From assembly GCA_018654575.1 (NCBI GenBank), contig JABILI010000023.1:1-46519 (forward strand): a DNA stretch of 46,519 nucleotides. Reading direction: 5' to 3'. The position numbers and the translations under genes are program-made. Source of the stretch: Porticoccaceae bacterium. Lineage in GTDB: Bacteria > Pseudomonadota > Gammaproteobacteria > Pseudomonadales > Porticoccaceae. Below the pieces are notes generated by a model. The model was not told the DNA's origin. It ran no database searches and saw only the letters and a program-made list of their open reading frames with translations. Below, one piece after another: positions 3,254 to 34,302 of this stretch; position 1 is the first letter of the stretch, and the number at the start of each line of letters is the position of its first letter.

Positions 3254-4486
3254 TCACAGCCCCGGTAACGCCGAATTATCAAGTTCGGCAATACAGGTCG
3301 CCTCTTCGATATCCATGTTCAACAGACGATCATAGAATTTGGTGTGCTTCCATTCACCCACCCAGTTCTCTGGGTCAACAAATATCATCTCAATCATTAA
3401 AGTGTTGCCCTCATTCAACATTTCGATATGCTCCGTCATACGAAATTGCTCGCTAACCTGAATGCCATCCATGATCCAATGTTCCGGCGAGCCGAAGCCC
3501 ACTAAGTCCACCTTGAGAGAGTCGCCATCCCACCGACCGATGGCATCACCGTTATAGGTTTCCTGGCGAATATCTTCATTAACATGACCGCGGCCATCGA
3601 GAAAAATAGTCCTGAAGCTGTTATTAAAACGGTGGACAATATAGACTGCAGTGGGCAACTGAATTGCCATAAAGGCCCCGAATCGAGTCATCAGTGCTGG
3701 CTGCCCCGGCGGATAACAGCGTGCATGCGGATCCATTCCACGCTTACCTTGAGCTATCACCGCGCGGTATTCGTCCAAAGTGGCCTGTGCTTTTGGCATA
3801 AGCTTGGGGATAGGGTAGAAATCCCAGGGATTAACGCCGGGCTTGGCTGACCGCTCATCTTCGACGCGGAACTCCCAAACACCTGTCATGTCAAAAGGTG
3901 CTGCCGAGCGCTTCTTGATTAGTGCTTCCGGATCCAGTGCTCCTGGGCCACCGACATTATTGATCAGCGGCAGAGTGGCTGGTCGCCATTTTTTCTCCCG
4001 CTCCAAGGCAGCCTTACGGCGCACCGCTAGGTCTTCAGCTGACTCCGTGCTGACGTATATCGTACTCTGGGTGCTGACATCGACCTTGACCTCCTTATTC
4101 CCGTTCGGTGAATCCTTGTGGATCGGCAATACTCGTCCGTCTGCTAGAGTTACCCACTGCAATACGCCTCCGGGCTTGCCACTTTTCAGCGGATTGACCT
4201 GTGCGGTAATAACCTCGCCTTTTTTAACGTCGGTTTTTTTCCAGCCCCGTCCAACCAGCGAATTAATAGCATAGGATTCTAACTTCCAAATCTCAGTTTC
4301 TCCCGCTTCATTGACCAGTTCCAGGTTAATGGCGACATGGGGGCTACGCCATAACAGACGGGTAACGGTACCTGTAACACTGATGCTTTTGTCGAAATCG
4401 AATACGACTGCGGAATGGTGAGCATGCGCTGAAAGAGTAATTGCAAGCAACCACACAAAAGCGAATACATGGGATATGGTTTTCAT
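3254..4486 (-). CDS. Exported DUF6152-type protein, paralogue 1
   Basis: This 410-residue protein starts at the ATG at 4486. The frame stays open further upstream, but only this ATG has a ribosome site (GGAGAG, eight bases away) and a signal peptide directly after it. The signal sequence ends ..LSAHA, and predicted cleavage leaves His-His-Ser at the mature N-terminus. Residues 23-130 match the DUF6152 type: WRSPH at 46-50, GRGWKK, and a LADGRVLP ending strand. A linker leads to a second, lipocalin-like beta-rich domain (about 220-405) with GVWEFRVEDE, TIFLDGRGH and GRWDGDSLKVD. The mature part holds only two cysteines, one per end of the second domain. It is the most divergent of the three copies and is transcribed leftward, away from the IclR gene. 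Function is unknown; a periplasmic location is likely. Confidence 0.75.
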   Translation of the reverse strand: MKTISHVFAFVWLLAITLSAHAHHSAVVFDFDKSISVTGTVTRLLWRSPHVAINLELVNEAGETEIWKLESYAINSLVGRGWKKTDVKKGEVITAQVNPLKSGKPGGVLQWVTLADGRVLPIHKDSPNGNKEVKVDVSTQSTIYVSTESAEDLAVRRKAALEREKKWRPATLPLINNVGGPGALDPEALIKKRSAAPFDMTGVWEFRVEDERSAKPGVNPWDFYPIPKLMPKAQATLDEYRAVIAQGKRGMDPHARCYPPGQPALMTRFGAFMAIQLPTAVYIVHRFNNSFRTIFLDGRGHVNEDIRQETYNGDAIGRWDGDSLKVDLVGFGSPEHWIMDGIQVSEQFRMTEHIEMLNEGNTLMIEMIFVDPENWVGEWKHTKFYDRLLNMDIEEATCIAELDNSALPGL

Positions 4487-4590
4487 AAATACTCTCCGGC
4501 TAAGTTCATCTCTTGCACACCTTCTTGGGCTTTTACTGCTCAGGTATTTAATCACACCGTTTAATAAAGGATGTACGGTTCGAGCCTCGG

Positions 4591-4607
4591 ATTTCGTCTT
4601 ACGGAAT
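4591..4607. promoter_or_regulatory. Candidate IclR-type operator upstream of DUF6152-1
   Basis: Read leftward the site is ATTCCGTAAGACGAAAT. It keeps the TTCC and ACGAAA halves of the motif shared with 3105, 4708 and 5661. It sits about 105 bp upstream of the DUF6152-1 start. The match is partial and no statistics were run. Confidence 0.3.
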
Positions 4608-4707
4608 AACAAACCCGTAATTTCGCGGGCTCTTTCACCCATTCAACCAACTATCGCTTCTAGTTTCGAGCAAAAACAGGCTGTTTGAGTAAAAAAATCA
4701 CAAAAGC

Positions 4708-4724
4708 GTTCCATATTGCGAAAC
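4708..4724. promoter_or_regulatory. Candidate IclR autoregulatory operator
   Basis: GTTCCATATTGCGAAAC is an imperfect dyad (GTTYC / GRAAC arms) of the size and style bound by IclR-family dimers. It lies 80 bp upstream of the IclR ATG in an AT-rich context where its promoter should be. Confidence 0.45.
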
Positions 4725-4803
4725 ATTTTTTTATACTGGGCTTAACTATAAACCTTACTCACAGGGCCTTGCTAAATAACTGTCTACCGAGATCCCGTTC
4801 CTC

Positions 4804-5592
4804 ATGCCCTCATCCGATGTGATTGAACCAATTGCCAGAGCGCTCTCAATCATGAGTGCGATGAATCAGCATAGACTGTCTACAATTAGCGACCTCCACC
4901 GGGCGACCGGGCTTCCCAAGCCCACCGTACACCGCATACTCGCTACGCTGATAAGTTGTGGGTATGTGGGGAAAGATATTGATCGCAGTGTCTATATGCT
5001 CACAGAGCAGGTGCTGTCATTGTCGTCAGGCTACGGTAAAGAAGCATGGTTGCTACAGGTCGGTACACCGGTGGCAAGGAGAATAACCCGAGAGGTTAAG
5101 TGGCCCGTCGCTATCGGCATATTAGATTACAACACCATCGTTGTTCAATATTCTACCCGCCCTTATTCAGAGTTTGTAATGCAAGGTTCCACAGTTAATA
5201 AGCGATTCAACTTATTCAGCACCGCTATGGGGCAGGCGTATTTGGGTTTCTGTGAAGAAACCCAGTTACAGAACATTCTTCAAGCACTTCGTGACCAGGA
5301 GGTTCAGGAGGACTGCATTCTTGAGAGCGATTCCAAAATAAAGCGCTACATAGCCGCGGTGCAAGATCGAGGTTACGGCCTACGCGTTGGCAACCGTGGT
5401 GAATCTACCCATATGGCCATCCCTATTAAAAGTGACCACCAGATCATCGGCGTTATAGGCCTCTCCATTTTCTCCAGCTGTTTTAACGATAAGGTGGCCA
5501 AGGAGTATCTGGCGTTGCTACGAAAATCTGCTGGTGAAATAGTCGATTCCATGGACAAAATGATGGCCCTCGCTGAACACTCGGCCACGTAA
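4804..5592 (+). CDS. IclR-family transcriptional regulator (MhpR-like)
   Basis: This 262-residue protein has the two IclR domains. An N-terminal winged helix-turn-helix (about 8-70) contains STISDLHRATGLPKPTVHRILATL. The C-terminal effector domain (about 80-255) contains VQGS-like MQGSTVNKRFNLFSTAMGQAYLGF and the late MAIPIK..IIGVIGLSIF strand. This family often senses aromatic acids and their products (MhpR, PcaR, PobR) and acts as activator or repressor. It sits between divergent DUF6152 genes and next to the aromatic operons, and dyad sites resembling IclR operators occur on both sides of it, so it most likely controls this locus. No good ribosome site precedes the ATG, so translation may be weak. 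The effector is not predictable from sequence. Confidence 0.9.
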   Translation: MPSSDVIEPIARALSIMSAMNQHRLSTISDLHRATGLPKPTVHRILATLISCGYVGKDIDRSVYMLTEQVLSLSSGYGKEAWLLQVGTPVARRITREVKWPVAIGILDYNTIVVQYSTRPYSEFVMQGSTVNKRFNLFSTAMGQAYLGFCEETQLQNILQALRDQEVQEDCILESDSKIKRYIAAVQDRGYGLRVGNRGESTHMAIPIKSDHQIIGVIGLSIFSSCFNDKVAKEYLALLRKSAGEIVDSMDKMMALAEHSAT

Positions 5593-5660
5593 ACTCAATC
5601 GCCCCTGCTACCCAATCCATTTAGATTAAATTCAATACGTTAAAACTACTAGACGGCAAT

Positions 5661-5677
5661 GTCTCGCATCACGGAAC
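5661..5677. promoter_or_regulatory. Candidate IclR-type operator upstream of the DUF6152-2/3 pair
   Basis: Read leftward this is GTTCCGTGATGCGAGAC, agreeing with the 4708 site at 13 of 17 positions. Its inner TCGCATCA (5664-5671) is repeated inverted as TGATGCGA at 5719-5726, 55 bp away, which would suit a tetrameric or looped IclR complex. It lies about 160 bp before the DUF6152-2 start. Confidence 0.4.
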
Positions 5678-5833
5678 GATTTAATATATGCCTGCCTGTA
5701 CCCCTTCGTCCTAAGTTATGATGCGAAAATAACTGGTCTGGGATGTTTTATTTGTCGACAATGGCACATACACTTGTGCCGTCCGCCTCTATAACACCCT
5801 TGGCGATATAAACAATAACCAGTAGGAACTATC

Positions 5834-6931
5834 ATGCAACGATTAATAGCCATACTATGTATTTTTCTATTCTCGAGTATAGCGCTAGCCCACCATTCCA
5901 GAGCCCCCTATAACTCAGAGCAGGAAATATCCGTCAAAGGTACTGTGACCAAAGTGCTATGGAGAAATCCACACCCTTACTACAAAATTGAGTCCATTAA
6001 TGCGCAAGGTGTTAAGGAAAATTGGCAATTCGAGGGCTTCGCAGTTTCTGCCTATGTTAAAGTCGGCTGGAAAAAAGATACAGTGCAGGTTGGCGACGCG
6101 GTAACCATGGTCGGCAATCCGAACAATAAGAACGCCTCACGGCCACCTGAGAAGCAATCGGGCTTACTGGTGCGTATCATCCAAGCCAATGGCAATGTAT
6201 TGGATGCGAATCCGGCAGAAGATGCACCTAAGGCCGATGGTGATGAGGAAGCCGAGCGAGAGAGTGAGTATAGTGACAAAATCATGGATACTCCCGGCAC
6301 CCATGATTTTAGTGGCAACTGGCATTTCTTCGTCAACAATGAAGAGGGGAAAACTGGCGGCTTTGATCCACCACGACACTGGCCCCTTTCTGCCGCAGGG
6401 CAGGAACAAGTCGACAACTTTGCTCTTAAGGACGACCCGTTCTATAAGTGTGTCAATTTTGGCCATCCACGGCTTGTCTTCTGGGTATGGGCACGCAACT
6501 GGGTGCGGTTTGAAGACAGGATTGAAGTGGAAACTGAGATGTCAGCCGAAAACCAAAATCGTACTATTTGGCTGGACGGCAGAAAAAAACCCGCTGACTT
6601 TGTGCCCTCCGATATCGGGTTTTCCACAGGTACCATCGACGAAAATGGTACCCTGACAGTAGAAACTACGGGCTATACCTCCACTCCATGGGGTAACATT
6701 ATCGGGCTTGATTCTAGCGACCAGAAACGTGTCGTTGTACGTTATAACCTAACTAACGGCAGCCCACTAACCGGGCATACCCGTATGGTTTTCGAAATGG
6801 TGGTAGAAGACCCGGTATACCTGAGCAAGCCGGTCAAGACCTGGGGCGTCTACGACCTCGCGCCGGCGCATGAATACGTGCCGTTCAGTTGCGATCCAGA
6901 GGCATCTAGCGCTCACCTAGAGTACGAATAG
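5834..6931 (+). CDS. Exported DUF6152-type protein, paralogue 2
   Basis: This 365-residue protein has a signal peptide (residues 1-19, hydrophobic core LIAILCIFLFSSIALA). Cleavage after Ala19 gives a mature His-His-Ser N-terminus. The first domain (20-125) has VKGTVTKVLWRNPHP, with the motif His at 47, 27 residues after His20. An acidic linker (about 127-150) precedes the beta-rich second domain with FSGNWHFFV, ARNWVRFEDRI, TIWLDGRKKPAD and the tail CDPEASSAHLEYE. Only two cysteines are present in the mature chain. TAGGAAC is the ribosome site. Paralogue 3 follows 137 bp later with nearly the same tail, indicating tandem duplication. Enzyme activity, ligand or binding role is unknown; the context suggests a periplasmic step tied to aromatic-acid use. 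Confidence 0.78.
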   Translation: MQRLIAILCIFLFSSIALAHHSRAPYNSEQEISVKGTVTKVLWRNPHPYYKIESINAQGVKENWQFEGFAVSAYVKVGWKKDTVQVGDAVTMVGNPNNKNASRPPEKQSGLLVRIIQANGNVLDANPAEDAPKADGDEEAERESEYSDKIMDTPGTHDFSGNWHFFVNNEEGKTGGFDPPRHWPLSAAGQEQVDNFALKDDPFYKCVNFGHPRLVFWVWARNWVRFEDRIEVETEMSAENQNRTIWLDGRKKPADFVPSDIGFSTGTIDENGTLTVETTGYTSTPWGNIIGLDSSDQKRVVVRYNLTNGSPLTGHTRMVFEMVVEDPVYLSKPVKTWGVYDLAPAHEYVPFSCDPEASSAHLEYE

Positions 6932-6964
6932 GCGGGTCTGCTCGAACTGAAATAACAGGCCACC

Positions 6965-6999
6965 GGAGCTTTCCCCCAGCAACCCAGCACGAAAGCTCC
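6965..6999 (+). other. Stem-loop between DUF6152-2 and DUF6152-3
   Basis: GGAGCTTTC (6965-6973) pairs perfectly with GAAAGCTCC (6991-6999) across a 17-nt loop. No uridine run follows, so it is not a standard terminator. It could stabilise the 3' end of the first message or be a weak terminator between the two paralogues. Confidence 0.4.
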
Positions 7000-7068
7000 T
7001 CGGGGGTTTGCCTCTCGCTTAAGCTCCCGCCAAAGGCCTACAATAAAAATTTTAACGCGAGGTTTATT

Positions 7069-8166
7069 ATGCTCAAGTACTTCTTACTAATACTGCTACT
7101 GCCGCTGACAACCGTCCAGGCTCACCACTCCCGCACCGCCTTCGACCTTGATACCGAGATCAGCGTTAAAGGTACGGTGATGGCCATGCGATGGAGGAAT
7201 CCACACGTCAGGTACGTTCTTGAGGTAGTCAATGAAAAAGGCGTCAATGAAATCTGGGCCTTCGACGGCTCTGCCATCGTCGACCTGGTCAAAAATGGGT
7301 GGATGGAAGATACCATTAAAGTCGGCGATGAAGTCACGTTCAAGGTATTCCCCAACCGTAAAAATGCGCAGCGCCGCCCGGAAAAAAAATCAGGTTTGTA
7401 CAATCGGGTAATCCTCGCCGATGGTACCTCTCTTCCACCCGTTGGAGGTGCAGAAACACCAACGCCTGTAACAGCCGGCGAGAGCGATGATACCAGCAAA
7501 GAAAAGACGAATGTATTCGGCGAATACGGCGTAACTACTTCCAAAGATTTCAGCGGTACTTGGGAATACTACCTGACTCTGGATGAAATCCTCGTCTTGG
7601 GTATGGGCTTAACCCACCCATGGCCACTGTCACAGAAAGGACAAGAAAATTACGCGGCCTATGATTCTAAAGATGACCCCGCATTTACCTGCCAGGAATA
7701 CGGAGCACCGCAAATCATCTTCGATGTGTATGCCCGGAACTGGACTCGCCATGAGGATCGTATCGTAGTCAAAACAGAAGGCAAGGAAACCGAACAGCGT
7801 GTTATATGGCTTGATGGCCGTAACAAGCCGGCTGACTACAGACCCAACCCGGTAGGTTTTTCCAGCGGTAGGTTCGATGAGTTTGGCAGCCTGATTGTTG
7901 AAACCACTGGGTTTCCGGCCACTCGCTGGGGTATAGATTATGGACTGGATTCAAGTACCCAAAAGAAGCTGACCGAGCGCTACACGCTGACCAACGGCAG
8001 GAAACTGGGCGGCACCAGAATGTTCGTAGAAGCGCTGGTAGAGGACCCGGTATATCTGGCGAGACCATTTTCGATACACGGTGTCTACAACCTCACTGAT
8101 AAACGTGAATTTCCCACCGCAAACTGCGATCCCGAAACTGCCAGCGCGCACCTTGAATATGAGTAA
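7069..8166 (+). CDS. Exported DUF6152-type protein, paralogue 3
   Basis: This 365-residue protein is the same length as its upstream neighbour. The signal peptide ends at Ala18 (..TTVQA), leaving His-His-Ser. The motif WRNPH ends at His46, again 27 residues after the first His. N-terminal domain features include VKGTVMAMRWRNPH, VKNGWMEDTIKVGDEVTF and LADGTSLP. A Thr/Glu-rich linker leads to the second domain with FSGTWEYY, ARNWTRHEDRIVV, VIWLDGRNKPADYRP and the tail CDPETASAHLEYE. Two mature cysteines match those of the other copies. A GAGG ribosome site lies seven bases before the ATG. No biochemical role is established to my knowledge for this type. Confidence 0.78.
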   Translation: MLKYFLLILLLPLTTVQAHHSRTAFDLDTEISVKGTVMAMRWRNPHVRYVLEVVNEKGVNEIWAFDGSAIVDLVKNGWMEDTIKVGDEVTFKVFPNRKNAQRRPEKKSGLYNRVILADGTSLPPVGGAETPTPVTAGESDDTSKEKTNVFGEYGVTTSKDFSGTWEYYLTLDEILVLGMGLTHPWPLSQKGQENYAAYDSKDDPAFTCQEYGAPQIIFDVYARNWTRHEDRIVVKTEGKETEQRVIWLDGRNKPADYRPNPVGFSSGRFDEFGSLIVETTGFPATRWGIDYGLDSSTQKKLTERYTLTNGRKLGGTRMFVEALVEDPVYLARPFSIHGVYNLTDKREFPTANCDPETASAHLEYE

Positions 8167-8220
8167 CCACCCGCGCGTGCCAAATACCCTGCGGAGGTGC
8201 CTTCAGTGTAATGCCCCATG

Positions 8221-8247
8221 GGTTACGCACCCCTGCAGCGCGTAACC
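8221..8247. other. Inverted repeat downstream of DUF6152-3
   Basis: GGTTACGC (8221-8228) and GCGTAACC (8240-8247) are perfect inverted arms around an 11-nt loop, 54 bp past the DUF6152-3 stop. There is no T-run, so it may be an RNA-stabilising hairpin or a protein-binding dyad rather than a terminator. Confidence 0.4.
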
Positions 8248-8373
8248 AGGCAGTACATCTCGCTCCGTGTAGTTAGTATTAAAATCATTTACATCGACCT
8301 AAGAGTTACACCTTGAATGCCCCTAAGACCTTAAGACAGCATCTTTTTGGCAGTGATATTGTCTTGTGCATAT

Positions 8374-8433
8374 ATTTGTTAACACGTTACATTGTTTTTC
8401 GCTCAATCATTTGTTAACATGTTACATTGTTTT
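8374..8433. promoter_or_regulatory. Two 25-bp direct repeats upstream of hpaE (candidate operator)
   Basis: Copies at 8374-8398 and 8409-8433 are identical except for one C/T difference, with a 35-bp period. Each contains TTGTTAACAYGTTACATTG. The core holds the palindromes TGTTAACA and, in copy 2, TAACATGTTA. Copy 2 ends 23 bp before the hpaE start, so a bound protein would block or recruit polymerase for the hpa genes. The motif differs from the one near the IclR gene, which points to a second regulator not encoded in this window. Confidence 0.6.
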
Positions 8434-8456
8434 GAGTTTGATCCTTGGAGTCGCTC

Positions 8457-9974
8457 ATGTCCGAATTTTCAGAAAACATAAGCAGGGCTAATCAGTATCT
8501 GCAACCGTTCAAAGCCACGACCACAGGGCATTTCATTAATGGCCGAGTAGTGTTGCCCGCGGGAGCTGCCACCTATGACAACACAACTCCAGTCGATAAC
8601 AGCTCTCTGGGCTCTGTGGTAGCTGGGACAGCCGCAGATGTGGACCGAGCCTGTGAAGCCGCAGAGGCAGCATTTGCCGATTGGCGCGACCTCCCCGGTG
8701 CCGAACGGAAGAAAGTATTGAATCAATTTGCCGACAAAATTGTTGAGCATGCCGACGAAATTGCACTGGTGGAGTCCATGGACTGTGGTCAGCCTATTCG
8801 CTTTATGAAACAAGCCGCAATTCGCGGTGCAGCAAACTTCCGCTTCTTTGCTGACAAAGCTCCTGAAGCACAAAACGGTTTATCCTTGCATCAGGAAGAG
8901 CACACTAACTACACCATTCGCAGCCCAATTGGCCCTGTGGGAATTATTACCCCTTGGAACACGCCTTTCATGCTTGCCACCTGGAAAATTGCGCCAGCAC
9001 TGGCTGCCGGCTGCACCATTGTGCACAAGCCTGCTGAGTTGACGCCTTTGAGCGCAATGCTATTGGCTAATATTAGCAAAGAGGCAGGGTTACCCGACGG
9101 GGTTTGGAACACTATTAATGGATTGGGAGAAGAAGCCGGAAAGCGGCTCACCGAACACCCTGCAATAAAGGCTGTGGGGTTGGTGGGCGAAGGAGCAACT
9201 GGCAGCCATATCATGCGCCAGGGAGCGGAGACATTGAAACGCGTGCACTTTGAGTTGGGTGGCAAAAACCCGGTGATCGTATTTGACGATGCCGACTTCG
9301 ATCGCGCCCTGGATGCCGTCGTATTTATGATCTACAGTCTTAATGGCCAGCGTTGTACTTCGTCGAGTCGCTTATTGATACAAAGTGGTATTAAACAAAA
9401 ATTCATCGATGCCCTGGAGCAACGGATAAAGATCCTGCGAGTTGGTCATCCGCTCGACCCGGACACCGAGGTGGGACCACTTGTCCATACGGGCCACTAT
9501 GAAAAGGTGATGAGCTATATGGATATTGCTCGAAAAGACGGGGCGACCATTGCTGCAGGAGGTGAGCGCAGAGAAGATTTAGGAGCGGGCAACTATATAG
9601 CCCCTACGCTTTTCACCCAGGCTACAAACAACATGCGCATTGCCCAGGAAGAGATTTTTGGCCCGGTTCTTACCGCTATATCCTTCGACACCGAAGAGCA
9701 AGCTATTGAGATTGCGAACGATACTATCTACGGCTTGGCCGGCTATATCTGGACAGAGAACACGGGCCGTGCAATGCGCATGGCCAGACAGGTAGAATCC
9801 GGCATGCTATGGATAAACTCAGAGAACAATCGCAACCTCCCCTCTCCGTTTGGCGGCGTCAAAATGTCCGGCATCGGTCGCGATGGCGGCGATTTCAGTT
9901 TCGACTTCTACATGGAAACAAAGAATATCTGTGTCGCTCATGGCACTCACAAAATCCCAGTTTTAGGGCGCTAG
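8457..9974 (+). CDS. hpaE: 5-carboxymethyl-2-hydroxymuconate semialdehyde dehydrogenase
   Basis: This 505-residue NAD-dependent aldehyde dehydrogenase oxidises the semialdehyde made by HpaD to 5-carboxymethyl-2-hydroxymuconate. The active-site Glu is in FELGGKNP and the nucleophile Cys in LNGQRCTSSSR. The stretch SGIGRDGGDFSFDFYMETKN and the C-terminal HKIPVLGR follow the HpaE pattern. The frame could start at a TTG at 8445, but TTGGAG there is better read as the ribosome site for the ATG at 8457. It is the first gene of the rightward hpa operon. The usual nucleotide-binding FTGxTxTG motif reads LVGEGATG here, an unusual replacement. Another muconate-type semialdehyde substrate cannot be excluded. 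Confidence 0.88.
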   Translation: MSEFSENISRANQYLQPFKATTTGHFINGRVVLPAGAATYDNTTPVDNSSLGSVVAGTAADVDRACEAAEAAFADWRDLPGAERKKVLNQFADKIVEHADEIALVESMDCGQPIRFMKQAAIRGAANFRFFADKAPEAQNGLSLHQEEHTNYTIRSPIGPVGIITPWNTPFMLATWKIAPALAAGCTIVHKPAELTPLSAMLLANISKEAGLPDGVWNTINGLGEEAGKRLTEHPAIKAVGLVGEGATGSHIMRQGAETLKRVHFELGGKNPVIVFDDADFDRALDAVVFMIYSLNGQRCTSSSRLLIQSGIKQKFIDALEQRIKILRVGHPLDPDTEVGPLVHTGHYEKVMSYMDIARKDGATIAAGGERREDLGAGNYIAPTLFTQATNNMRIAQEEIFGPVLTAISFDTEEQAIEIANDTIYGLAGYIWTENTGRAMRMARQVESGMLWINSENNRNLPSPFGGVKMSGIGRDGGDFSFDFYMETKNICVAHGTHKIPVLGR

Positions 9975-10010: not shown

Positions 10011-10862
10011 ATGGGTAACATAGCTTTAGCAGCAAAAATAACCCACGTGCCATCCATGTATCTTTCCGAGTTAGACGGCCCGAATAAGGGTTGTCGTGAA
10101 GCTGCAATTAAGGGGCACAAGGAAATTTCCCGGCGCTGCCGCGAGCTAAGTGTTGATACAATTGTGGTCTTCGACACCCACTGGCTGGTGAACTCTGGCT
10201 ACCATATTAATAATGCGGCACACTTCAAAGGCTGTTACACCAGCAACGAACTACCTCATTTCATTAAAAATATGGACTACGAATACGACGGCAACACAGA
10301 GTTAGGCGAGAGTATCGCCCAGGCAGCTATCGAGGCGGGCGTGCACACCAGGGCGCACTCCGACACTACCCTTCCATTAGAATATGGAACTCTCGTCCCC
10401 ATGCGCTATATGAATGAGGATCGCGCTTTCAAAATTATCTCTGTCTCTGCTCTATGCACAGTGCACGATTTGGAATCCAGTGCTCTACTGGGGCAGGCGG
10501 TACGCAAAGCCGTAGAGGAAAACTACGACGGGAACGTTGCCGTATTCGCCTCTGGCTCACTATCTCATCGCTTCGCTCAAAATGGCGTCACAGACCAATA
10601 CTCATTTAAAGTCTGGTCACCCTTCTTACAAGCAATGGATGAGCGCGTCGTGAAGATGTGGGAGAACGGGGAATGGGAAACCTTTACAGCCCTATTGCCA
10701 GAGTATGCGGATAAATGCCATGGCGAGGGCTTCATGCATGACACTGCCATGCTACTCGGTTGCCTCGGATGGGATAAATATCAGGGAAAAGTAGAGGTTG
10801 TCACACCCTATTTCGGCAGTTCGGGTACCGGCCAGATAAACGCTATCTTTCCAGTAAAATAA
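10011..10862 (+). CDS. hpaD: 3,4-dihydroxyphenylacetate (homoprotocatechuate) 2,3-dioxygenase
   Basis: This 283-residue class III extradiol dioxygenase opens homoprotocatechuate next to its hydroxyls, giving 5-carboxymethyl-2-hydroxymuconate semialdehyde. Similarity to E. coli C HpaD is very high from the first residues (ALAAKITHVPSMYLSEL). The metal ligands can be placed: His12 (ITHVPS), His57 (FDTHWLV) and Glu239 (CHGEGFMHD). EYGTLVPMRYMNED and FASGSLSHRF are further conserved blocks. GGAG precedes the ATG. It is only distantly related to the MhpB-type enzyme at 565-1524, so the locus has two ring-opening enzymes of different specificity. Confidence 0.95.
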   Translation: MGNIALAAKITHVPSMYLSELDGPNKGCREAAIKGHKEISRRCRELSVDTIVVFDTHWLVNSGYHINNAAHFKGCYTSNELPHFIKNMDYEYDGNTELGESIAQAAIEAGVHTRAHSDTTLPLEYGTLVPMRYMNEDRAFKIISVSALCTVHDLESSALLGQAVRKAVEENYDGNVAVFASGSLSHRFAQNGVTDQYSFKVWSPFLQAMDERVVKMWENGEWETFTALLPEYADKCHGEGFMHDTAMLLGCLGWDKYQGKVEVVTPYFGSSGTGQINAIFPVK

Positions 10863-10874
10863 GGAGCCCCACTG

Positions 10875-11255
10875 ATGCCACACTGTATATTGGAATACTC
10901 TGCGAATCTGGATGAATCTATTGATATTCCAGTACTTCTGAAAACACTCAGTGCAGCGGCTGTGGAGACCGAGTTGTTTCCGCTGGCAGGAATTCGCTGC
11001 CGCGCCCACCGATGCGAACACTTTCTAATCGCCGACGGGAACCCTAATTTTGGTTTCTTACATTTACAAATCAAAATCGGTGCAGGCCGATCAGACGAGG
11101 CTAAAAAGCAGGCTGCTGACAGTATCTTCGAGGCCCTGAATGCCTTTTTGCAACCGCTCTCTGATCGACAGGGGCTGGCGATATCCTTCGAAATGTCGGA
11201 ATTACCCGCCATACTGAAGTACAATAAAAATAACCTCCGCGACTATCTCCCATAG
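10875..11255 (+). CDS. hpaF: 5-carboxymethyl-2-hydroxymuconate delta-isomerase
   Basis: This 126-residue protein has the size and layout of the CHM isomerase (tautomerase superfamily, trimer). It starts MPHCILEYSANLDE, so the catalytic N-terminal Pro is exposed after Met removal. RCRAHRCEHFLIADGNPNFGF and the C-terminal SFEMSE strand are typical. It converts 5-carboxymethyl-2-hydroxymuconate to 5-oxopent-3-ene-1,2,5-tricarboxylate, the substrate of the missing HpaG. It begins 12 bp after hpaD with a strong AAGGAG ribosome site, so the two are co-expressed. Confidence 0.9.
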   Translation: MPHCILEYSANLDESIDIPVLLKTLSAAAVETELFPLAGIRCRAHRCEHFLIADGNPNFGFLHLQIKIGAGRSDEAKKQAADSIFEALNAFLQPLSDRQGLAISFEMSELPAILKYNKNNLRDYLP

Positions 11256-11288
11256 CCAGAGCAGGGGTTCACAAAAGGGCCAGACACT

Positions 11289-12092
11289 ATGTTAAGTGAT
11301 GCTGATATTGACAAAGCCGCGAACGATCTCCATCAAGCAGAGATCGACAGGAGGCAGATCGACCCGATTACGCTCACCCATCCAAACATGACTATGGATG
11401 AGGCCTATGCTATCCAGAAACAGTGGGTTGACCGCAAAGTATCCGATGGCCGACGGGTGATCGGTTATAAGATTGGACTCACATCCCGCGCCATGCAGAA
11501 TACAATGAAGATCGACCAACCAGATTACGGTGTGCTCTTGGATGACATGGTGTTCGAGGATGGCGCCGATATCGAGACGGCCCGCTTCAGCGATCCAAGA
11601 ATAGAAGTAGAACTTGCCTTCGTTCTGAAAGACCGTCTTGAAGGTGAGCATGTCACTATGTTCGATGTGCTCAACGCCACTGACTATGTAGTCCCGGCGC
11701 TGGAACTGATCTCAGCGCGCAGCCACCGGGTTCACCCGGAAACCGGATACACGCGTAAGATTTTCGATACCATCGCCGACAATGCCGCCAACGCTGGCAT
11801 TGTTATGGGTGGCCGCCCGATCAGGCCGCAAGAAATGGACTTACGATGGTGTGGTGCGCTCTGCTATGTCAACGGTGTATTGGAGGAGACCGGTTTGGCG
11901 GCCGGGGTTCTAAACCACCCCGCCAATGGGATATGTTGGGTGGCCAAACGATTCGCACCACACGGCATCGCGCTGGAGCCCGGCCAGGTTATATTGTCCG
12001 GCTCATTTATCAGGCCCATCATCGTCAAGGCCGGTGACACTGTTCACGCCGACTACGGCCCATTGGGCGGAATTTCCTGTCACTTCGTTTAG
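11289..12092 (+). CDS. hpaH: 2-oxo-hept-4-ene-1,7-dioate hydratase
   Basis: This 267-residue protein belongs to the hydratase/decarboxylase group (HpaH, MhpD, XylJ). It hydrates 2-oxohept-4-ene-1,7-dioate to the 4-hydroxy acid used by HpaI. Family signatures are GYKIGLTSRAMQ, YGVLLDDMVF, the metal-binding acids in PRIEVELAFVL and the late LEPGQVILSGSF. It is spaced 33 bp from hpaF. Because HpaH and MhpD are homologous, this enzyme might also serve a product of the MhpB-like branch, although the surrounding hpa genes favour HpaH. Confidence 0.92.
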   Translation: MLSDADIDKAANDLHQAEIDRRQIDPITLTHPNMTMDEAYAIQKQWVDRKVSDGRRVIGYKIGLTSRAMQNTMKIDQPDYGVLLDDMVFEDGADIETARFSDPRIEVELAFVLKDRLEGEHVTMFDVLNATDYVVPALELISARSHRVHPETGYTRKIFDTIADNAANAGIVMGGRPIRPQEMDLRWCGALCYVNGVLEETGLAAGVLNHPANGICWVAKRFAPHGIALEPGQVILSGSFIRPIIVKAGDTVHADYGPLGGISCHFV

Positions 12093-12145
12093 TTTGCGCA
12101 ACTAAGCTTCCCTAGTGGCGACACTTTTCAGTAAGGTAACTAAGC

Positions 12146-12943
12146 ATGGACCTACCCATAAATTACTTTAAGCAGACTTTAAAGGGCGACCAACCACAGT
12201 ACGGATTGTGGATGGGCCTGCCCGACACCATTTGTGCCGAAATCGGTGCCAGCGCAGGTTTTGACTGGGTATTAATCGATGCTGAGCACGCGCCTTATAG
12301 TGTGCGCGATGTACACAATCATCTCCAAGTCATCGCCCCATATAACGTGCCCGCCATTGTTCGCCCCGCCGAGGGGCGCACTGCTCTGCTTAAACAACTG
12401 CTGGATGTCGGGGCGCAAACATTACTGGTACCCATGGTAGATAGCGCTGATCAGGCTAAACAACTTGTTCAGGATGTGCGCTACCCCCCCGATGGAATTC
12501 GGGGGCTAGGAACATCAATGTCCCGCGCCGCTCGCTGGAATCGTGTAGACAATTATTTGCACAGAGCTAACGAAGAAATCTGCCTCCTCGTGCAGGTAGA
12601 AACAAAAGTGGCTCTGCAAAATCTTGATGAGATCGTAGCCGTTGAAGGCATCGACGGGGTATTTATTGGACCCTCTGACTTATCTGCATCAATGGGTCAT
12701 ATCGGAAACCCAGGCCACCCCGATGTGGTCTCCGCCATTGAAAGCGGACTTGAAACCATACTCACCGCGGGTAAAGCGGCGGGAATTTTGGCAGTAGATG
12801 AAGCACTGGCTCGACGCTATGTGGAAAAAGGAGCTAACTTTGTCGGTGTGGGGGTAGATGCAGCGCTACTGAGTAATGCAACCCGTCAACTGGCCAACCA
12901 ATTCAAACAGGCGACATCAGATGGGGAACAAGCCGGATACTAG
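12146..12943 (+). CDS. hpaI: 4-hydroxy-2-oxoheptane-1,7-dioate aldolase
   Basis: This 265-residue class II (metal-dependent) aldolase of the HpcH/HpaI family splits 4-hydroxy-2-oxoheptane-1,7-dioate to pyruvate and succinate semialdehyde, the last step of the pathway. Visible signatures are FDWVLIDAEHAPYS, the metal ligand Glu in LVQVETKVAL and Asp in GVFIGPSDLSASMG. It ends the hpa operon. A succinate-semialdehyde dehydrogenase is not encoded nearby, so that product must be handled by a gene elsewhere. Confidence 0.92.
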   Translation: MDLPINYFKQTLKGDQPQYGLWMGLPDTICAEIGASAGFDWVLIDAEHAPYSVRDVHNHLQVIAPYNVPAIVRPAEGRTALLKQLLDVGAQTLLVPMVDSADQAKQLVQDVRYPPDGIRGLGTSMSRAARWNRVDNYLHRANEEICLLVQVETKVALQNLDEIVAVEGIDGVFIGPSDLSASMGHIGNPGHPDVVSAIESGLETILTAGKAAGILAVDEALARRYVEKGANFVGVGVDAALLSNATRQLANQFKQATSDGEQAGY

Positions 12944-16268: not shown

Positions 16269-17357
16269 ATGTCTTTAATTGAACATTTTATCGGTCTATT
16301 TATCGAGTCAGCGCCTTGGCTACTCATGGGCTTTACCGTTGCAGGGCTCATGAAGGCTTTTGTGCCCAGCGAGCTACTCGCTAAACATCTTGGCGAACCG
16401 GGCTTAATGGCCACAGTCAAAGCATCCCTTCTAGGAGCGCCCCTGCCTCTTTGCTCCTGCGGAGTGATTCCAGCAGCCCTTGGCCTACGCCGCAGTGGCG
16501 CCTCTAAGGCCGCAACCACCTCTTTCCTGATATCTACACCAGAGACAGGCGTGGACTCAGTAACCGTCTCTTACGCGATGCTAGGGCCATTTATGGCCGT
16601 TATTCGCCCCATTGCCGCTATTTCCACTGCAATCACCGCTGGTTTGCTGGTAGGCGCCGACAAAGACGAGCCGGCGCCAATCACCTCAGAGCTGGTTCAA
16701 TCGTGCTGTGCCAGTAAAGCCCCAGAACCCGAGCCAAGCTGCTGCAGTCAAACCAATGTCGAAGCTAGTGCGCCTGAAACTCTGGCGACTCGCCTAAAAG
16801 ACAGCATGAAGTTCACCTTTGTCGATCTCATCAAAGATATCAGCCTGTGGCTGCTGATTGGCTTGGGCATTGCCGCAGTGGTTAAAACCTATGTACCCAC
16901 CGAATTTTTAGCCCAGTGGGGTGATGGCTTTATGGCCTTTGTGGTCATGGCTCTAATTGGCGTACCTATGTACATCTGCGCCCTAGCCTCAACCCCTATT
17001 GCCGCTGGGCTGTTATTTTCCGGCGTATCCCCAGGTGCCACATTAGTCTTTATGCTGATTGGGCCTGCCACTAACATCGCTACCATGGGCCTAGTCAAAC
17101 GTGAGCTAGGCAATCGAGCCCTGACGGCCTACCTTGGCAGTGTTGTCGGGGTTGGCTTTGCCTTTGGCTATCTAACCAACTACCTAGCCGCAGAGTGGAG
17201 CATCGACTTTTTAGCGCAAACCCAACCTGCACACGCCATGCTTAATACGTCCATAGCAACAGCCTCGGCCATCGCGCTCGCTGGGTTAATGATTTATGCG
17301 CTGGGATCCAAGTACCTCATGACTCCCAAATTAAAAACACCCGCTACTCATTCATAA
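16269..17357 (+). CDS. SO_0444-type Cu/Zn efflux permease (DUF318/ArsP-like)
   Basis: This 362-residue polytopic membrane protein has two homologous halves of about four helices each. The first half carries APLPLCSCGVIP with Cys62 and Cys64, the metal motif of this permease family. The halves are joined by a soluble linker with two Cys pairs (146-147 and 158-159) in a Pro/Glu-rich context. The second half has GVPMYICALASTPIAAGLL. Members are linked to export of Cu, Zn or arsenic species. The ZntR-like gene immediately upstream favours zinc or a similar divalent metal. No clear Shine-Dalgarno is seen, so translation may be coupled to zntR. Confidence 0.8.
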   Translation: MSLIEHFIGLFIESAPWLLMGFTVAGLMKAFVPSELLAKHLGEPGLMATVKASLLGAPLPLCSCGVIPAALGLRRSGASKAATTSFLISTPETGVDSVTVSYAMLGPFMAVIRPIAAISTAITAGLLVGADKDEPAPITSELVQSCCASKAPEPEPSCCSQTNVEASAPETLATRLKDSMKFTFVDLIKDISLWLLIGLGIAAVVKTYVPTEFLAQWGDGFMAFVVMALIGVPMYICALASTPIAAGLLFSGVSPGATLVFMLIGPATNIATMGLVKRELGNRALTAYLGSVVGVGFAFGYLTNYLAAEWSIDFLAQTQPAHAMLNTSIATASAIALAGLMIYALGSKYLMTPKLKTPATHS

Positions 17358-30841: not shown

Positions 30842-33800
30842 TTAGTGCACCCAATGATGCCTTGCGGACTTCTCTGCTAACGCTTTGGCTGTTGCCGCCG
30901 GCATTGCATTGATCTCTAAGCGCTCAAAAAACAAAGGATCGATTTTAGATTTCCCACTTCCAACTTCTGACATATTAGTAACATCGTACAAACGACCGTT
31001 AATCATGGTGTGCGTGATCATTTCACTGCGGCGAATATTAGTAAGTACCTCGCCATCCATAATAACTATGTCGGCTAGCTTGCCCACTTCAATAGAGCCC
31101 AAATCATCTCCCATACCCAGGGCCACACTAGGGTCATGGGTGGCTGCACGCAGTGCTTCCCAAGGCGTGAATCCGCCCTGATTAAGCATCCACATCTCCC
31201 AATGAGCCGCCAATCCCTCTCGCTGGCCATGGGCACCAATCAACACGCGTACGCCCGCATCACGCAATTGCTTCGCGTAGGCGGCAACTTTTATATGGTT
31301 ATAGTGGTCATCAGGGGCTGTGGCTCGACGAATGGAGCGCGGTTCAACAATATAGCGAGGAACATAGCGTGTTAAACGAGGGTTTTCCCAGACATTAGTG
31401 CGGTCATACCAGTATTTTTCGCCCTCTAAGCCACCGTAGGCAACCACCAATGTTGGGTTGTATGCCATCTCAGTTTGGCCCCAGAACTGGGTGAGATCGC
31501 TGTACCCTGTAGCAATGTTTAGCGAATGCTCTAAGGTCGTATGGCCATCAGCAATCATGCTCATATTTTGATACAACTTACCGCCACCCTCTGGCACCAC
31601 CATTAACTCCAGATCACGCGCCGCATTAAGCACCTGCTGCCGTTGCTCTCGACGCGGCTGATTGTAACTTTTGACAGACACCGCCCCCATGTCTTTAAGG
31701 CGCTGTAAGTGGAAAAATGCGTCCTCATAGCTATCAATCTTGGCATGTGCGGTGGGCGAGTTAGCACCATAAATTATTGTTCCGGTGGAGAATATTCGTG
31801 GCCCTAAAATCTGCCCGCTACGCTGCATTTCAGACGCTGCAAATATCTCAGAACTGTCATTAGACGGATCGTGAATCGTCGTCACACCAAAGGCTAAACT
31901 AGAAAGATTCTTCCAATTCTGCTGCGGAATAATTTCCTCGTTCGCCTGAGAACCGTGGGCATGGCCATCAATCAAACCGGGCGTTAGTGTTTTGCCACTG
32001 ACATCAATTATCTGGGCGTCAGCCGGAATAGAAACCTCACCCACCTTACCCACTGCAACAATACGATTGTCTTGCACTACGACAACGCCATTACTGATCA
32101 CTTCTTGAGTATTATCAGCATCACGCATCGTAACCACTTGTCCGCCCACCAATGCGAGGGTCGAACTAGGCTTATCCGAGGGTTGGGGGAATCCTAAATT
32201 TAAGCCTTCAGATACCGGCTCCGGTAATTCATCAGGAGCACCCGCCAGAAAGCTAAACGCCTGATTCAGCTCACGACTGAACACGGTTGCACCGTGAGAC
32301 CAGCTAAGCCTATCGCTACCTGCAGACCAATTTAAATATTCACCGGCGCGCTTGGATACCTGCGCTACCGGCAAACCACTATCTTCAATATCCAGCTCTT
32401 GCTGCAAACCGGTACTTAGAAATGGCGCCACAAAGGCGTTATTTTGGTACGTATAAGCGATCCATTTACCATCTGGTGAAAGCTGGTATTCAGTAACCTT
32501 GTCACCCTTCAGCAGCGTGCGCTCATCCCTACCCTTTAAATCAACACTATAGAGCTCAAGCTCTGTGTACTTGCTGTCAGGAGCATAGTCGGTGAAGTAA
32601 AGCCGATCTTCATCAGCGGCAAAGTGCGCATTAAAGCCATCCTCTGTCACTTTCTCCATGGCCTTGGCTTTTCGGTCAGCAAGATAAATGCCGGGCTCCA
32701 ACGACCACTCAGGCGACAGCAGATAACCGCCCGTCAGCCGGCGAAAAACAATATTATTACCCTTAGGTGAGAACTTAGGTTCGACATAAATACCAGGCTC
32801 AGTCGTGACGGTTAAACCTTGGCCCCCATTGGCACTCACCACCTTAACTGAACCCAGATCTTTATCGTTCCAGGTTGTATAGGCTATCGATTTGCCATCA
32901 CGTGAAAAACTCGGATAAAACTCGTCATGATCATTCTGCCGAGTCAACCGTTTGACACGGCCGCTTTTTATATCGCGAAGATATAACTTGCCCAGCGCTT
33001 GATAAACCACCAAGTCTTTTGTCGGTGACATGCTGGCCCACCGAATCATCTTTATGTCAAAGGTATCAGGCGCTACATCTACCGCATAACGCGGTGGCTG
33101 CTGTACCTGTTTTTCGATTTTGATATGCATTGGGATAATTGAAACATTTAAGCTCTCGACATTTAGCCTGTGGAATTTACCGGCGGTCCAGTAGACAATA
33201 TGCCGGCCGTCCGGTGTCCAATCAAAATAAGCAAAATTACCCTCCGAACCAAAGGTTTCCTGATGGTCTCGCTCCATCTCTGTCGACAGCCTGCGGTCAG
33301 TCCCAGATTTGAGGTCTTTTAAATACAGAACGGTTTTTGTGTCCTCCCGTTTGAGATAAGCCATATGTTTACCATCTGGCGAAGGCGTTGGCACAATGGC
33401 GCCGCCCGCACCACCGATGTAACTGGACGATTCTCCCGTCTCAAGATCATGGCGCATAATGTTAAATAGTTCGGTGGTCGCATTTTTGCCATATTCCCAG
33501 ATTCGACCCGCGGTAACATCATCCGTGTAGTAGAGGTATTTGCCATCTGGCGAAAATGCAGGGTCAGTCATGTTTTTTTGAGTATGCTCCTCGTAAGCTC
33601 GCTCGGTAACCATTACCCCATCACCCCCAGATCGATGATACATCCAGATTTCACCCGCGGGGATAGACCTCGACGACATAAAGCCTTTGGTCACTGCAAT
33701 ATAGTCACCATCCGGGCTCCAACTAGGCGTATGAATAAGGGCTGTTTTCTCCGTACTAATTTGGCGTGAATTACTACCATTGGCATCCATTATCCATAAA

Positions 33801-34168
33801 TTAGAGGCACCATCACGATCACTGATAAAAGCGATAGTCTTACCGTCAGGGCTGTAGGTTGGCTGCATGTTCCAATCAAACCCCTGCACCAGCGGCGTGC
33901 CTTCACCTCCGCCAATAGGCATCGTATAGATATCACCGAGCATATCAAAAGCTATAGTCTTTCCATCCTCACTAACACTGAGGTTTGACCAGGTACTTTC
34001 AGTGGTATCAATCGATATGGTCTTTAGTTCACCCTGGGGTTGGGTGACGTCCCATTCATTTCCATCTTCCTCATCATCAATATCAGAGGAAAATGCAGGG
34101 GTTAAAATAAAGCAACACAAAAGGGAGAATATTGAAACGTAGGGCTGCTTCTTGAGGTGAGTAATCAT
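30842..34168 (-). CDS. Secreted TolB-like beta-propeller / amidohydrolase fusion protein
   Basis: This protein of about 1108 residues starts at 34168, where a signal peptide begins (MITHLKKQPYVSIF..) and AGAGG lies upstream; an ATG at 34201 would bury it. After cleavage near FSS comes an acidic segment, then WD40/PD40-type repeats such as YSPDGKTIAFISDRDG, PSWSPDGDYIAV and FSPDGKYLYY over about 600 residues. From about residue 670 an imidazolonepropionase-like amidohydrolase domain follows with the metal site LIDGHAHG, further His in TTLEHSLNIA and LIGAHGQREG, and AATHDPSVALGMGDDLGSIE. It probably hydrolyses a cyclic amide or peptide-like substrate in the periplasm. The substrate is unknown. 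Confidence 0.82.
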   Translation of the reverse strand: MITHLKKQPYVSIFSLLCCFILTPAFSSDIDDEEDGNEWDVTQPQGELKTISIDTTESTWSNLSVSEDGKTIAFDMLGDIYTMPIGGGEGTPLVQGFDWNMQPTYSPDGKTIAFISDRDGASNLWIMDANGSNSRQISTEKTALIHTPSWSPDGDYIAVTKGFMSSRSIPAGEIWMYHRSGGDGVMVTERAYEEHTQKNMTDPAFSPDGKYLYYTDDVTAGRIWEYGKNATTELFNIMRHDLETGESSSYIGGAGGAIVPTPSPDGKHMAYLKREDTKTVLYLKDLKSGTDRRLSTEMERDHQETFGSEGNFAYFDWTPDGRHIVYWTAGKFHRLNVESLNVSIIPMHIKIEKQVQQPPRYAVDVAPDTFDIKMIRWASMSPTKDLVVYQALGKLYLRDIKSGRVKRLTRQNDHDEFYPSFSRDGKSIAYTTWNDKDLGSVKVVSANGGQGLTVTTEPGIYVEPKFSPKGNNIVFRRLTGGYLLSPEWSLEPGIYLADRKAKAMEKVTEDGFNAHFAADEDRLYFTDYAPDSKYTELELYSVDLKGRDERTLLKGDKVTEYQLSPDGKWIAYTYQNNAFVAPFLSTGLQQELDIEDSGLPVAQVSKRAGEYLNWSAGSDRLSWSHGATVFSRELNQAFSFLAGAPDELPEPVSEGLNLGFPQPSDKPSSTLALVGGQVVTMRDADNTQEVISNGVVVVQDNRIVAVGKVGEVSIPADAQIIDVSGKTLTPGLIDGHAHGSQANEEIIPQQNWKNLSSLAFGVTTIHDPSNDSSEIFAASEMQRSGQILGPRIFSTGTIIYGANSPTAHAKIDSYEDAFFHLQRLKDMGAVSVKSYNQPRREQRQQVLNAARDLELMVVPEGGGKLYQNMSMIADGHTTLEHSLNIATGYSDLTQFWGQTEMAYNPTLVVAYGGLEGEKYWYDRTNVWENPRLTRYVPRYIVEPRSIRRATAPDDHYNHIKVAAYAKQLRDAGVRVLIGAHGQREGLAAHWEMWMLNQGGFTPWEALRAATHDPSVALGMGDDLGSIEVGKLADIVIMDGEVLTNIRRSEMITHTMINGRLYDVTNMSEVGSGKSKIDPLFFERLEINAMPAATAKALAEKSARHHWVH

Positions 34169-34302
34169 TGTTTTCTGTGCCTCTACTAAATGGTGATCCA
34201 ATCTAAAATCAAGACTTTTAACTAGCGCATACTATCCCATACTTTGCCTGGAAGGGAGTGCTTTTAAGCAAAAAACAAATGACGTAGGCGAGAATATTTC
34301 GT

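Follow-up and report, generated by a model that had tools for sequence, protein, structure and literature searches.

The 46,519-nucleotide stretch analysed here, referred to as the window, comes from a Porticoccaceae bacterium (contig JABILI010000023.1, positions 1 to 46,519 of the forward strand) and carries three genes, designated P1, P2 and P3, at positions 3,254 to 8,166. Each of them encodes a putative exported protein in which a DUF6152 domain is followed by a second, C-terminal domain of predicted calycin-like fold (C-domain). The genes and their features are listed below, the ends of the mature DUF6152 domains being approximate.

3254..4486, minus strand: P1, DUF6152 plus predicted calycin-like C-domain; 410 amino acids, predicted signal peptide 1-22
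4127..4420, minus strand: P1 predicted mature DUF6152 domain; His23-His24-Ser at 4412-4420, Pro-His histidine His50 at 4337-4339
3257..3904, minus strand: P1 C-terminal domain, predicted calycin-like (DMTGVW...)
5834..6931, plus strand: P2, DUF6152 plus predicted calycin-like C-domain; 365 amino acids, predicted signal peptide 1-19
5891..6184, plus strand: P2 predicted mature DUF6152 domain, OB-fold (oligonucleotide/oligosaccharide-binding fold) predicted; His20-His21 at 5891-5896, Pro-His histidine His47 at 5972-5974
6293..6928, plus strand: P2 C-terminal domain, predicted calycin-like (DFSGNW...)
7069..8166, plus strand: P3, DUF6152 plus predicted calycin-like C-domain; 365 amino acids, predicted signal peptide 1-18
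7123..7416, plus strand: P3 predicted mature DUF6152 domain; His19-His20 at 7123-7128, Pro-His histidine His46 at 7204-7206
7534..8163, plus strand: P3 C-terminal domain, predicted calycin-like (DFSGTW...), the chain modelled on its own

The ATG codons of P1, P2 and P3 are preceded by the Shine-Dalgarno-like sequences GGAG, AGGA and GAGG, respectively. For P1 this ATG, at 4486, is the likely start rather than that of the longer open reading frame (ORF) from 4642. The Pfam search matched P1, P2 and P3 to DUF6152 (PF19649) with E-values of 3.2e-24, 3.7e-22 and 4.0e-21; their scores of 85.3, 78.7 and 75.4 bits all lie above the gathering score of 27 bits, which bears out the description of the three as DUF6152-type paralogues in the original prediction made from this DNA. 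That prediction did not mention that each protein has a second domain, nor did it consider the conserved second His of the His-His pair as a possible ligand. The ratio of nonsynonymous to synonymous substitution rates (dN/dS) was about 0.08-0.17 for P1-P3 compared with locus L005 and for P1 and P2 compared with locus L008, while dS was saturated in three comparisons with more distant relatives. One scan of viral contigs yielded no relatives of P2.

In all three proteins the signal-peptide-like start ends right at His-His-Ser. The residues just before it are AHA in P1, ALA in P2 and VQA in P3, all of which are good signal peptidase I sites, and cleavage at this point is predicted. Each protein also carries WRSPH or WRNPH, with the histidine 27 residues past the first His (23/50, 20/47 and 19/46), exactly as had been read from the sequence before.

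We surveyed DUF6152 with the Pfam model in four genome sets. The domain was found in 3/56 genomes of the relatives set and 2/35 of the genus sample (both including the genome of the window), in 48/397 sampled genomes of the phylum of the window (Pseudomonadota), in each of four genomes that were reached by way of loci and in 4/80 genomes sampled from the phylum of a Bryobacterales record, the genome of that record included. The four positive genomes of the latter phylum held 36, 34, 11 and 1 matches; the two highest numbers, a strong paralogue expansion, belong to genomes of about 4 Mb each (G449 and G480). The motif counts rest on 114 loci, 111 of them with an assigned ORF, and the DUF6152 places without a locus identifier from the four-genome and 80-genome scans stand outside them. 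Both N-terminal histidines and a Pro-His histidine 20-34 residues further on were present in 111/111 assigned members, a count to be read with the fact that the Pfam model spans the motif region, so that highly diverged members without the motif could escape detection; the remaining three loci (L075, L080 and L102) likewise show it. The conservation of the histidines that the original prediction had proposed to check extends over all of these loci, so that, of the three refuting conditions named there, lack of conservation of the second His is not borne out. The spacing between His-His and Pro-His was 24 in one row, 26 in 22, 27 in 40, 28 in 46 and 29 in two. The value of exactly 27 shared by P1-P3 was therefore discarded as a family rule, since 26-28 covers 108 of the 111 rows.

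Position -1 was occupied by Ala in 103 rows, Gly in 5, Ser in 2 and Thr in 1, and a simple rule detected an AxA-like cleavage site in 106/111 members and none in the other five. The residue following His-His was Ser in 50 rows, Gly in 44, Ala in 16 and Pro in 1. In a 37-member alignment H1, H2, P27 and H28 were the only invariant columns, and the information content was 0.65 bits at position -2 compared with 4.32 bits at each of the two histidines. The rows of a 93-row alignment were trimmed to begin at His-His, with two other-frame ORFs of L086 and L007 excluded. Judged from these sequences, the His-His plus Pro-His pattern exceeds chance. The genome of the window contains a fourth DUF6152 gene, which is single-domain (G000:C71:23658-23924; L004, L124) and lies near a betaine-aldehyde dehydrogenase gene and an esterase-like gene; no C-domain or DUF6644 match was found in the 16 kb stretch around it.

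The DUF6152 domain is predicted to adopt an OB-fold. AlphaFold2, run on 15 sequences, gave a two-domain model with a mean predicted local distance difference test score (pLDDT) of 72.9 and a predicted template modelling score (pTM) of 0.58. In the N-terminal domain of this model, strands 13-24, 29-36 and 42-48 are followed by a helix (52-57) and by strands 70-78 and 89-98. This order, b1-b2-b3-a-b4-b5, corresponds to a five-strand OB-fold with the helix between strands 3 and 4, and the Pro-His histidine (residue 28 of mature P2) would sit in the turn joining strands 1 and 2. A Foldseek search of the PDB returned 1178 matches, of which 3 had an E-value of 0.001 or better (best 5.3e-4), and the template modelling (TM) score normalized to the target reached 0.65 among the listed matches. 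The best 50 of the 1178 include lysyl-tRNA synthetases, PriB, SSB, CST/RPA, PolD, an OBody and similar entries, and as far as their titles tell we take all 50 to be OB-fold or OB-containing proteins. The Ig-like beta-sandwich of lytic polysaccharide monooxygenases (LPMOs) and CopC was seen neither in the predicted structure nor in these best 50 matches.

The C-terminal part of P1-P3, about 210 residues, matched no Pfam family at E-values up to 5, and in profile searches of PDB sequences no relative emerged below E 0.1. Modelled alone, the C-domain reached a pLDDT of 73.7 and a pTM of 0.77, and all 50 listed Foldseek matches were FABP, CRABP, CRBP or myelin P2 barrels. Since the E-values (1.1e-3 to 4.1e-2), target TM scores (0.31-0.61, mostly 0.5-0.6) and root-mean-square deviations (6.7-15.3 Å) of these matches are weak, the calycin label is to be taken as a fold hint. 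The sequence contains GxW, a motif that links to lipocalins. The C-domain weakly resembles the fatty-acid/retinoid-binding barrels in predicted fold, but no sequence relationship to them was found, and it differs from them in being exported and in having two conserved Cys (72 and 69 of 76 aligned rows); an Arg is conserved as well (72/76). Among the C-domain copies encoded separately, 46/61 have a signal-peptide-like start by a crude rule.

The partnerships of DUF6152 with the C-domain and with the membrane protein DUF6644 are the strongest new result of this study. The distinct DUF6152 ORFs numbered 128 by one key, and 126 were kept for a neighbour count by the residue following His-His; this count required the HH..PH pattern and hence provides no evidence for it. 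Using a C-domain profile built solely on sequences of the window and of close relatives, we found the C-domain fused to or encoded beside 73 of the 82 genes of the HHS/HHA/HHP type: fused in 19, as a separate gene on the same strand no more than 1.5 kb away in 48, and within 451 bp on the opposite strand in six. Six of the remaining nine have flanks shorter than 1.5 kb, while L124, L128 and L163 have no C-domain within about 5 kb or more. The C-domain profile hit 10/397 genomes, all 10 among the 48 DUF6152-positive ones (Fisher test, 2.7e-10). A gene for a DUF6644-like membrane protein lies within 1.5 kb of 39/44 HHG-type genes, a count that is partly circular because our DUF6644 model was built from 23 membrane-like neighbours picked from the same loci; five HHG-type loci (L053, L058, L062, L070 and L162) have no such gene in about 10 kb. 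Independently of this model, Pfam DUF6644 was detected in 31/48 DUF6152-positive and 0/349 DUF6152-negative genomes (Fisher test, 3.2e-34). These genome counts are uncorrected for kinship, so that both Fisher values overstate independence. The distance between DUF6644 and DUF6152 is at most 5 kb in 29/31 genomes and at most 1 kb in 21/31; these values are upper bounds, as they are based on 33 of 42 DUF6644 places and 39 DUF6152 places entered by hand. In some genomes the searches for DUF6644 and the C-domain took just a fraction of the first-look candidates on to scoring (at most 9 and 7, respectively), and the absences hold at that sensitivity. In two genomes (G406 and G373) DUF6152, the C-domain and a DUF6644-like region occur in one chain, on which Pfam DUF6644 gave an E-value of 0.0016 (below the cut-off) in one and no match in the other. 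DUF6152, the C-domain and DUF6644 constitute a newly seen three-part module. Residues H34, G83, K103, W149, G156 and R157 are invariant in DUF6644 (23 and 20 members).

In the window, P1-P3 are set among LigB and Hpa genes of aromatic catabolism, with homoprotocatechuate cleavage encoded downstream of P2-P3:

565..1524, minus strand: LigB-type extradiol dioxygenase, co-linear with P1
1559..2032, minus strand: SnoaL_4 protein, co-linear with P1
2017..3021, minus strand: FAA hydrolase (FAH), co-linear with P1; weak HpaG-type matches below cut-off
4804..5592, plus strand: IclR-type regulator lying between P1 and P2 and retained beside them in relatives
8445..9974, plus strand: HpaE, 5-carboxymethyl-2-hydroxymuconate semialdehyde dehydrogenase, downstream of P3; 806.7 bits, cut-off 638.35
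10011..10862, plus strand: HpaD, 3,4-dihydroxyphenylacetate 2,3-dioxygenase; 477 bits, cut-off 315.95
10875..12943, plus strand: CHMI isomerase, HpaH hydratase and HpaI aldolase

An SO_0444 family Cu/Zn efflux transporter is encoded at 16269-17357 (449.4 bits, cut-off 300). It was not counted as a linked copper gene, as it lies 8 kb downstream of P3 behind other genes. The genome of the window also holds HupE/UreJ_2 genes, on other contigs.

The block consisting of P1-FAH-SnoaL-LigB and IclR-P2-P3 recurs in relatives: a Halioglobus metagenome-assembled genome (MAG) has two copies of it, both with hpa genes, and a Cellvibrionales MAG has it with no hpa genes in the stretch read. Between the window and the Halioglobus MAG (L005), protein identity is 98.5-100 % on the LigB-SnoaL-FAH-P1-IclR side and about 93 % for P2-P3, and dS is 0.05 for P1 and 0.21-0.24 for P2 and P3. 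Because the two sides differ in this way, the sequences suggest patchwork exchange. In three relatives (G450, G451 and G452) a DUF6644-HupE/UreJ_2-P0006-LigB block lies near the DUF6152 cluster genes, and a TonB receptor precedes it in G451 and G452; the G450 contig begins at that point. The HupE/UreJ_2 permeases of all three (L007:3597-4346, L172 about 659-1399 and L173 about 7744-8505) have the predicted N-terminus A|HNVA. The LigB protein of the block (L007:4890-5915 and its L172 and L173 orthologues) is 4,5-DOPA-dioxygenase-like, with a score of 227.5 bits that narrowly misses the cut-off of 233, and its twin-arginine starts in all three relatives suggest an exported ring-cleaving enzyme. 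A cytochrome b561 (PF01292) gene adjoins a P3-like gene at two further loci (L009:5252-5797 and L010:4478-5023), where tandem DUF6644-like genes are also present. Cytochrome b561 was considered as an electron donor and set aside as a required part, since none was found in the genome of the window at E 1e-3.

We propose that P1-P3 are exported two-domain proteins that would bind a transition metal on the DUF6152 OB-fold. His1 would be a ligand through both its free N-terminus and its side chain, the invariant Pro-His histidine would be another, and His2 may contribute as well, an N-terminal His being a natural chelator. The C-terminal barrel would hold a hydrophobic or aromatic ligand or dock a partner. 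The job of the proteins would most likely be to capture and handle metal ions in the periplasm, copper first, with nickel or cobalt possible, coupled to the uptake and degradation of an aromatic compound; many DUF6152 members, above all those of the HHG type, would operate beside DUF6644. Metal binding as such by P1-P3 is probable from the sequence, and the full reading, in which metal handling is coupled to aromatic turnover, is given a probability of roughly 0.45. In its favour are the invariant histidines behind an AxA-like cleavage site, the two predicted folds, the co-occurrence and fusion of DUF6152 with the C-domain and DUF6644, the HupE/UreJ_2 block in the clusters of three relatives and the Ni-binding precedents DUF4198 and DUF6702. 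Several results weigh against it. Residues 1-4, which include the proposed N-terminal ligands, were modelled at pLDDT below 50. The Foldseek support for the OB-fold is modest, with a query TM score of about 0.16-0.20 for the full model, a value that is low because the model holds two domains, and no C-domain match had an E-value of 0.001 or better. Our neighbour tallies, which cover selected nearest ORFs from a mechanical caller (ORFs over 1000 amino acids and some duplicates excluded), contain no copper-handling family near DUF6152 (all 21 families, the first 25 of 67 and the first 25 of 77). DUF6644 occurs within 5 kb of just 15/82 genes of the HHS/HHA/HHP type, to which P1-P3 belong and many of which have short flanks, and the genome of the window has no DUF6644 match better than E 0.002. 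The 36 DUF6152 matches in one genome fit one metal chaperone poorly and substrate-specific proteins better.

The site proposed here is reminiscent of the histidine-brace proteins (LPMO AA families, CopC and PmoB), which are likewise exported and combine an N-terminal His, predicted in DUF6152, with a conserved internal His. They differ from DUF6152 in their Ig-like or cupredoxin sandwich, as opposed to the predicted OB-fold, and in lacking its His-His start. The interpretation offered in the original prediction therefore stands only in part: His-His at the predicted cleavage site and the family-wide conservation of the histidines hold, but kinship to LPMO, CopC or PmoB does not, as no relative was found among Pfam, NCBIfam or PDB sequences and the predicted fold is different. 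The copper pairs CopC-CopD and YcnI-YcnJ also consist of an exported metal-binding protein and a membrane partner; DUF6152, a presumed metal binder, is paired with DUF6644, not with a CopD family protein. Four DUF6644-type proteins had no match to CopD at E-values as high as 10, one of them matched DUF2214 weakly, and CopD is not among the 21 neighbour families of DUF6152.

The signal-strapping families DUF4198, DUF6702, Ang-1 and Ang-2 are likewise uncharacterised exported bacterial proteins and have the N-terminal His that is predicted in DUF6152 (PMC12537917). DUF4198 is a beta-sandwich (crystal structure) and DUF6702 an Ig-like beta-sandwich (model) according to the same source, in contrast to the predicted OB-fold of DUF6152, and neither family was among the Pfam matches of P1-P3 at E up to 1. 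Both are described there as binding Ni and Co, and DUF6702 also Cu (PMC12537917). HupE/UreJ_2 is presented as the permease part of the anglerases, for which metal-binding domains with a conserved His1 are proposed, and such permeases are involved for Ang-1 and Ang-2 (PMC12537917). As signal strapping rejected candidates with a second coordinating residue at position 2, a His-His family may have been outside its reach, and DUF6152 goes unmentioned in the main text (PMC12537917).

Alternatively, P1-P3 might be a new periplasmic copper oxygenase or peroxygenase: the barrel would hold an aromatic or hydrophobic compound while a histidine-brace-like site on the OB-fold oxidises it, and the LigB/FAH/Hpa pathway would receive the products. 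The placement among aromatic meta-cleavage genes, the partner barrel with its predicted ligand-binding fold, the large paralogue sets (36 and 34 matches) and the cytochrome b561 beside the P3-like genes of two relatives, a possible electron donor, are all in favour of this reading, and catalysis would account for both the paralogue sets and the ligand-binding partner. We nevertheless regard it as unlikely, since there is neither an oxygenase fold nor such kinship, cytochrome b561 was not found in the genome of the window, and DUF4198 and DUF6702, with their N-terminal His, are reported to have weak or no peroxidase/oxidase activity (PMC12537917). Metal handling together with aromatic turnover is suggested by the gene neighbours in relatives at least as strongly as copper oxidation. 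Somewhat less probable still is that the proteins are metal-free exported ligand binders or sensors, their histidines contacting either an acidic aromatic ligand or some partner, for instance DUF6644. This would agree with the calycin-like domain and the catabolic neighbourhood, and H34, K103 and R157 of DUF6644 could meet a histidine patch; yet two consecutive invariant histidines exactly at a predicted new N-terminus together with a third invariant one are hard to explain without a chelate, and the same clusters of three relatives encode a HupE/UreJ permease with a predicted N-terminal His.

That the His-His conservation is mainly a feature of protein export, the Pro-His being structural, is very improbable. 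The usual preference for Ala at -1 and -3 is present, but signal peptidase needs no His at +1 and +2, and the histidines are far more constrained than position -2 (4.32 against 0.65 bits). His at +1 is moreover rare, at 2.6 % of the set analysed in PMC12537917. A bolder extension of the proposed metal handling, for which we see only a slim chance, would make metal acquisition and aromatic catabolism one machine, a periplasmic system for unloading metal catecholates and feeding on them, with the histidine-brace-like site on the OB-fold. The TonB receptor may import a metal-loaded aromatic chelate and the Tat-exported LigB-type dioxygenase may destroy the chelator; the DUF6152-calycin proteins and the HupE permease with its N-terminal His may take the freed metal, and the ring fragments may enter the LigB/FAH/Hpa carbon pathway. 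Such a system fits the TonB/LigB/HupE cluster of the relatives and rests on neighbours absent from the window.

In the open literature searched, which leaves subscription papers and preprints mostly outside its scope, no paper naming DUF6152 or DUF6644 was found, nor one pairing 'histidine brace' with 'OB-fold'. As modelled, DUF6152 would be an exported N-terminal-His family on a fold unreported for such families in that literature. Should the site bind metal, the histidine brace would gain a new fold and, with DUF6152, a further family. The partnership gives functional context to two uncharacterised parts, DUF6644 and the unnamed calycin-like exported domain, and makes the role of DUF6152 directly testable.

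Elsewhere in the window, positions 1-564, its left edge, look like part of an MFS-type transporter gene on the minus strand, named by eye. Positions 30842-34201 encode a protein of 1119 amino acids that appears by eye to be a TolB-type propeller fused to an amidohydrolase, and beside it lies an apparent cluster of tricarboxylic acid cycle genes, also recognized by eye.

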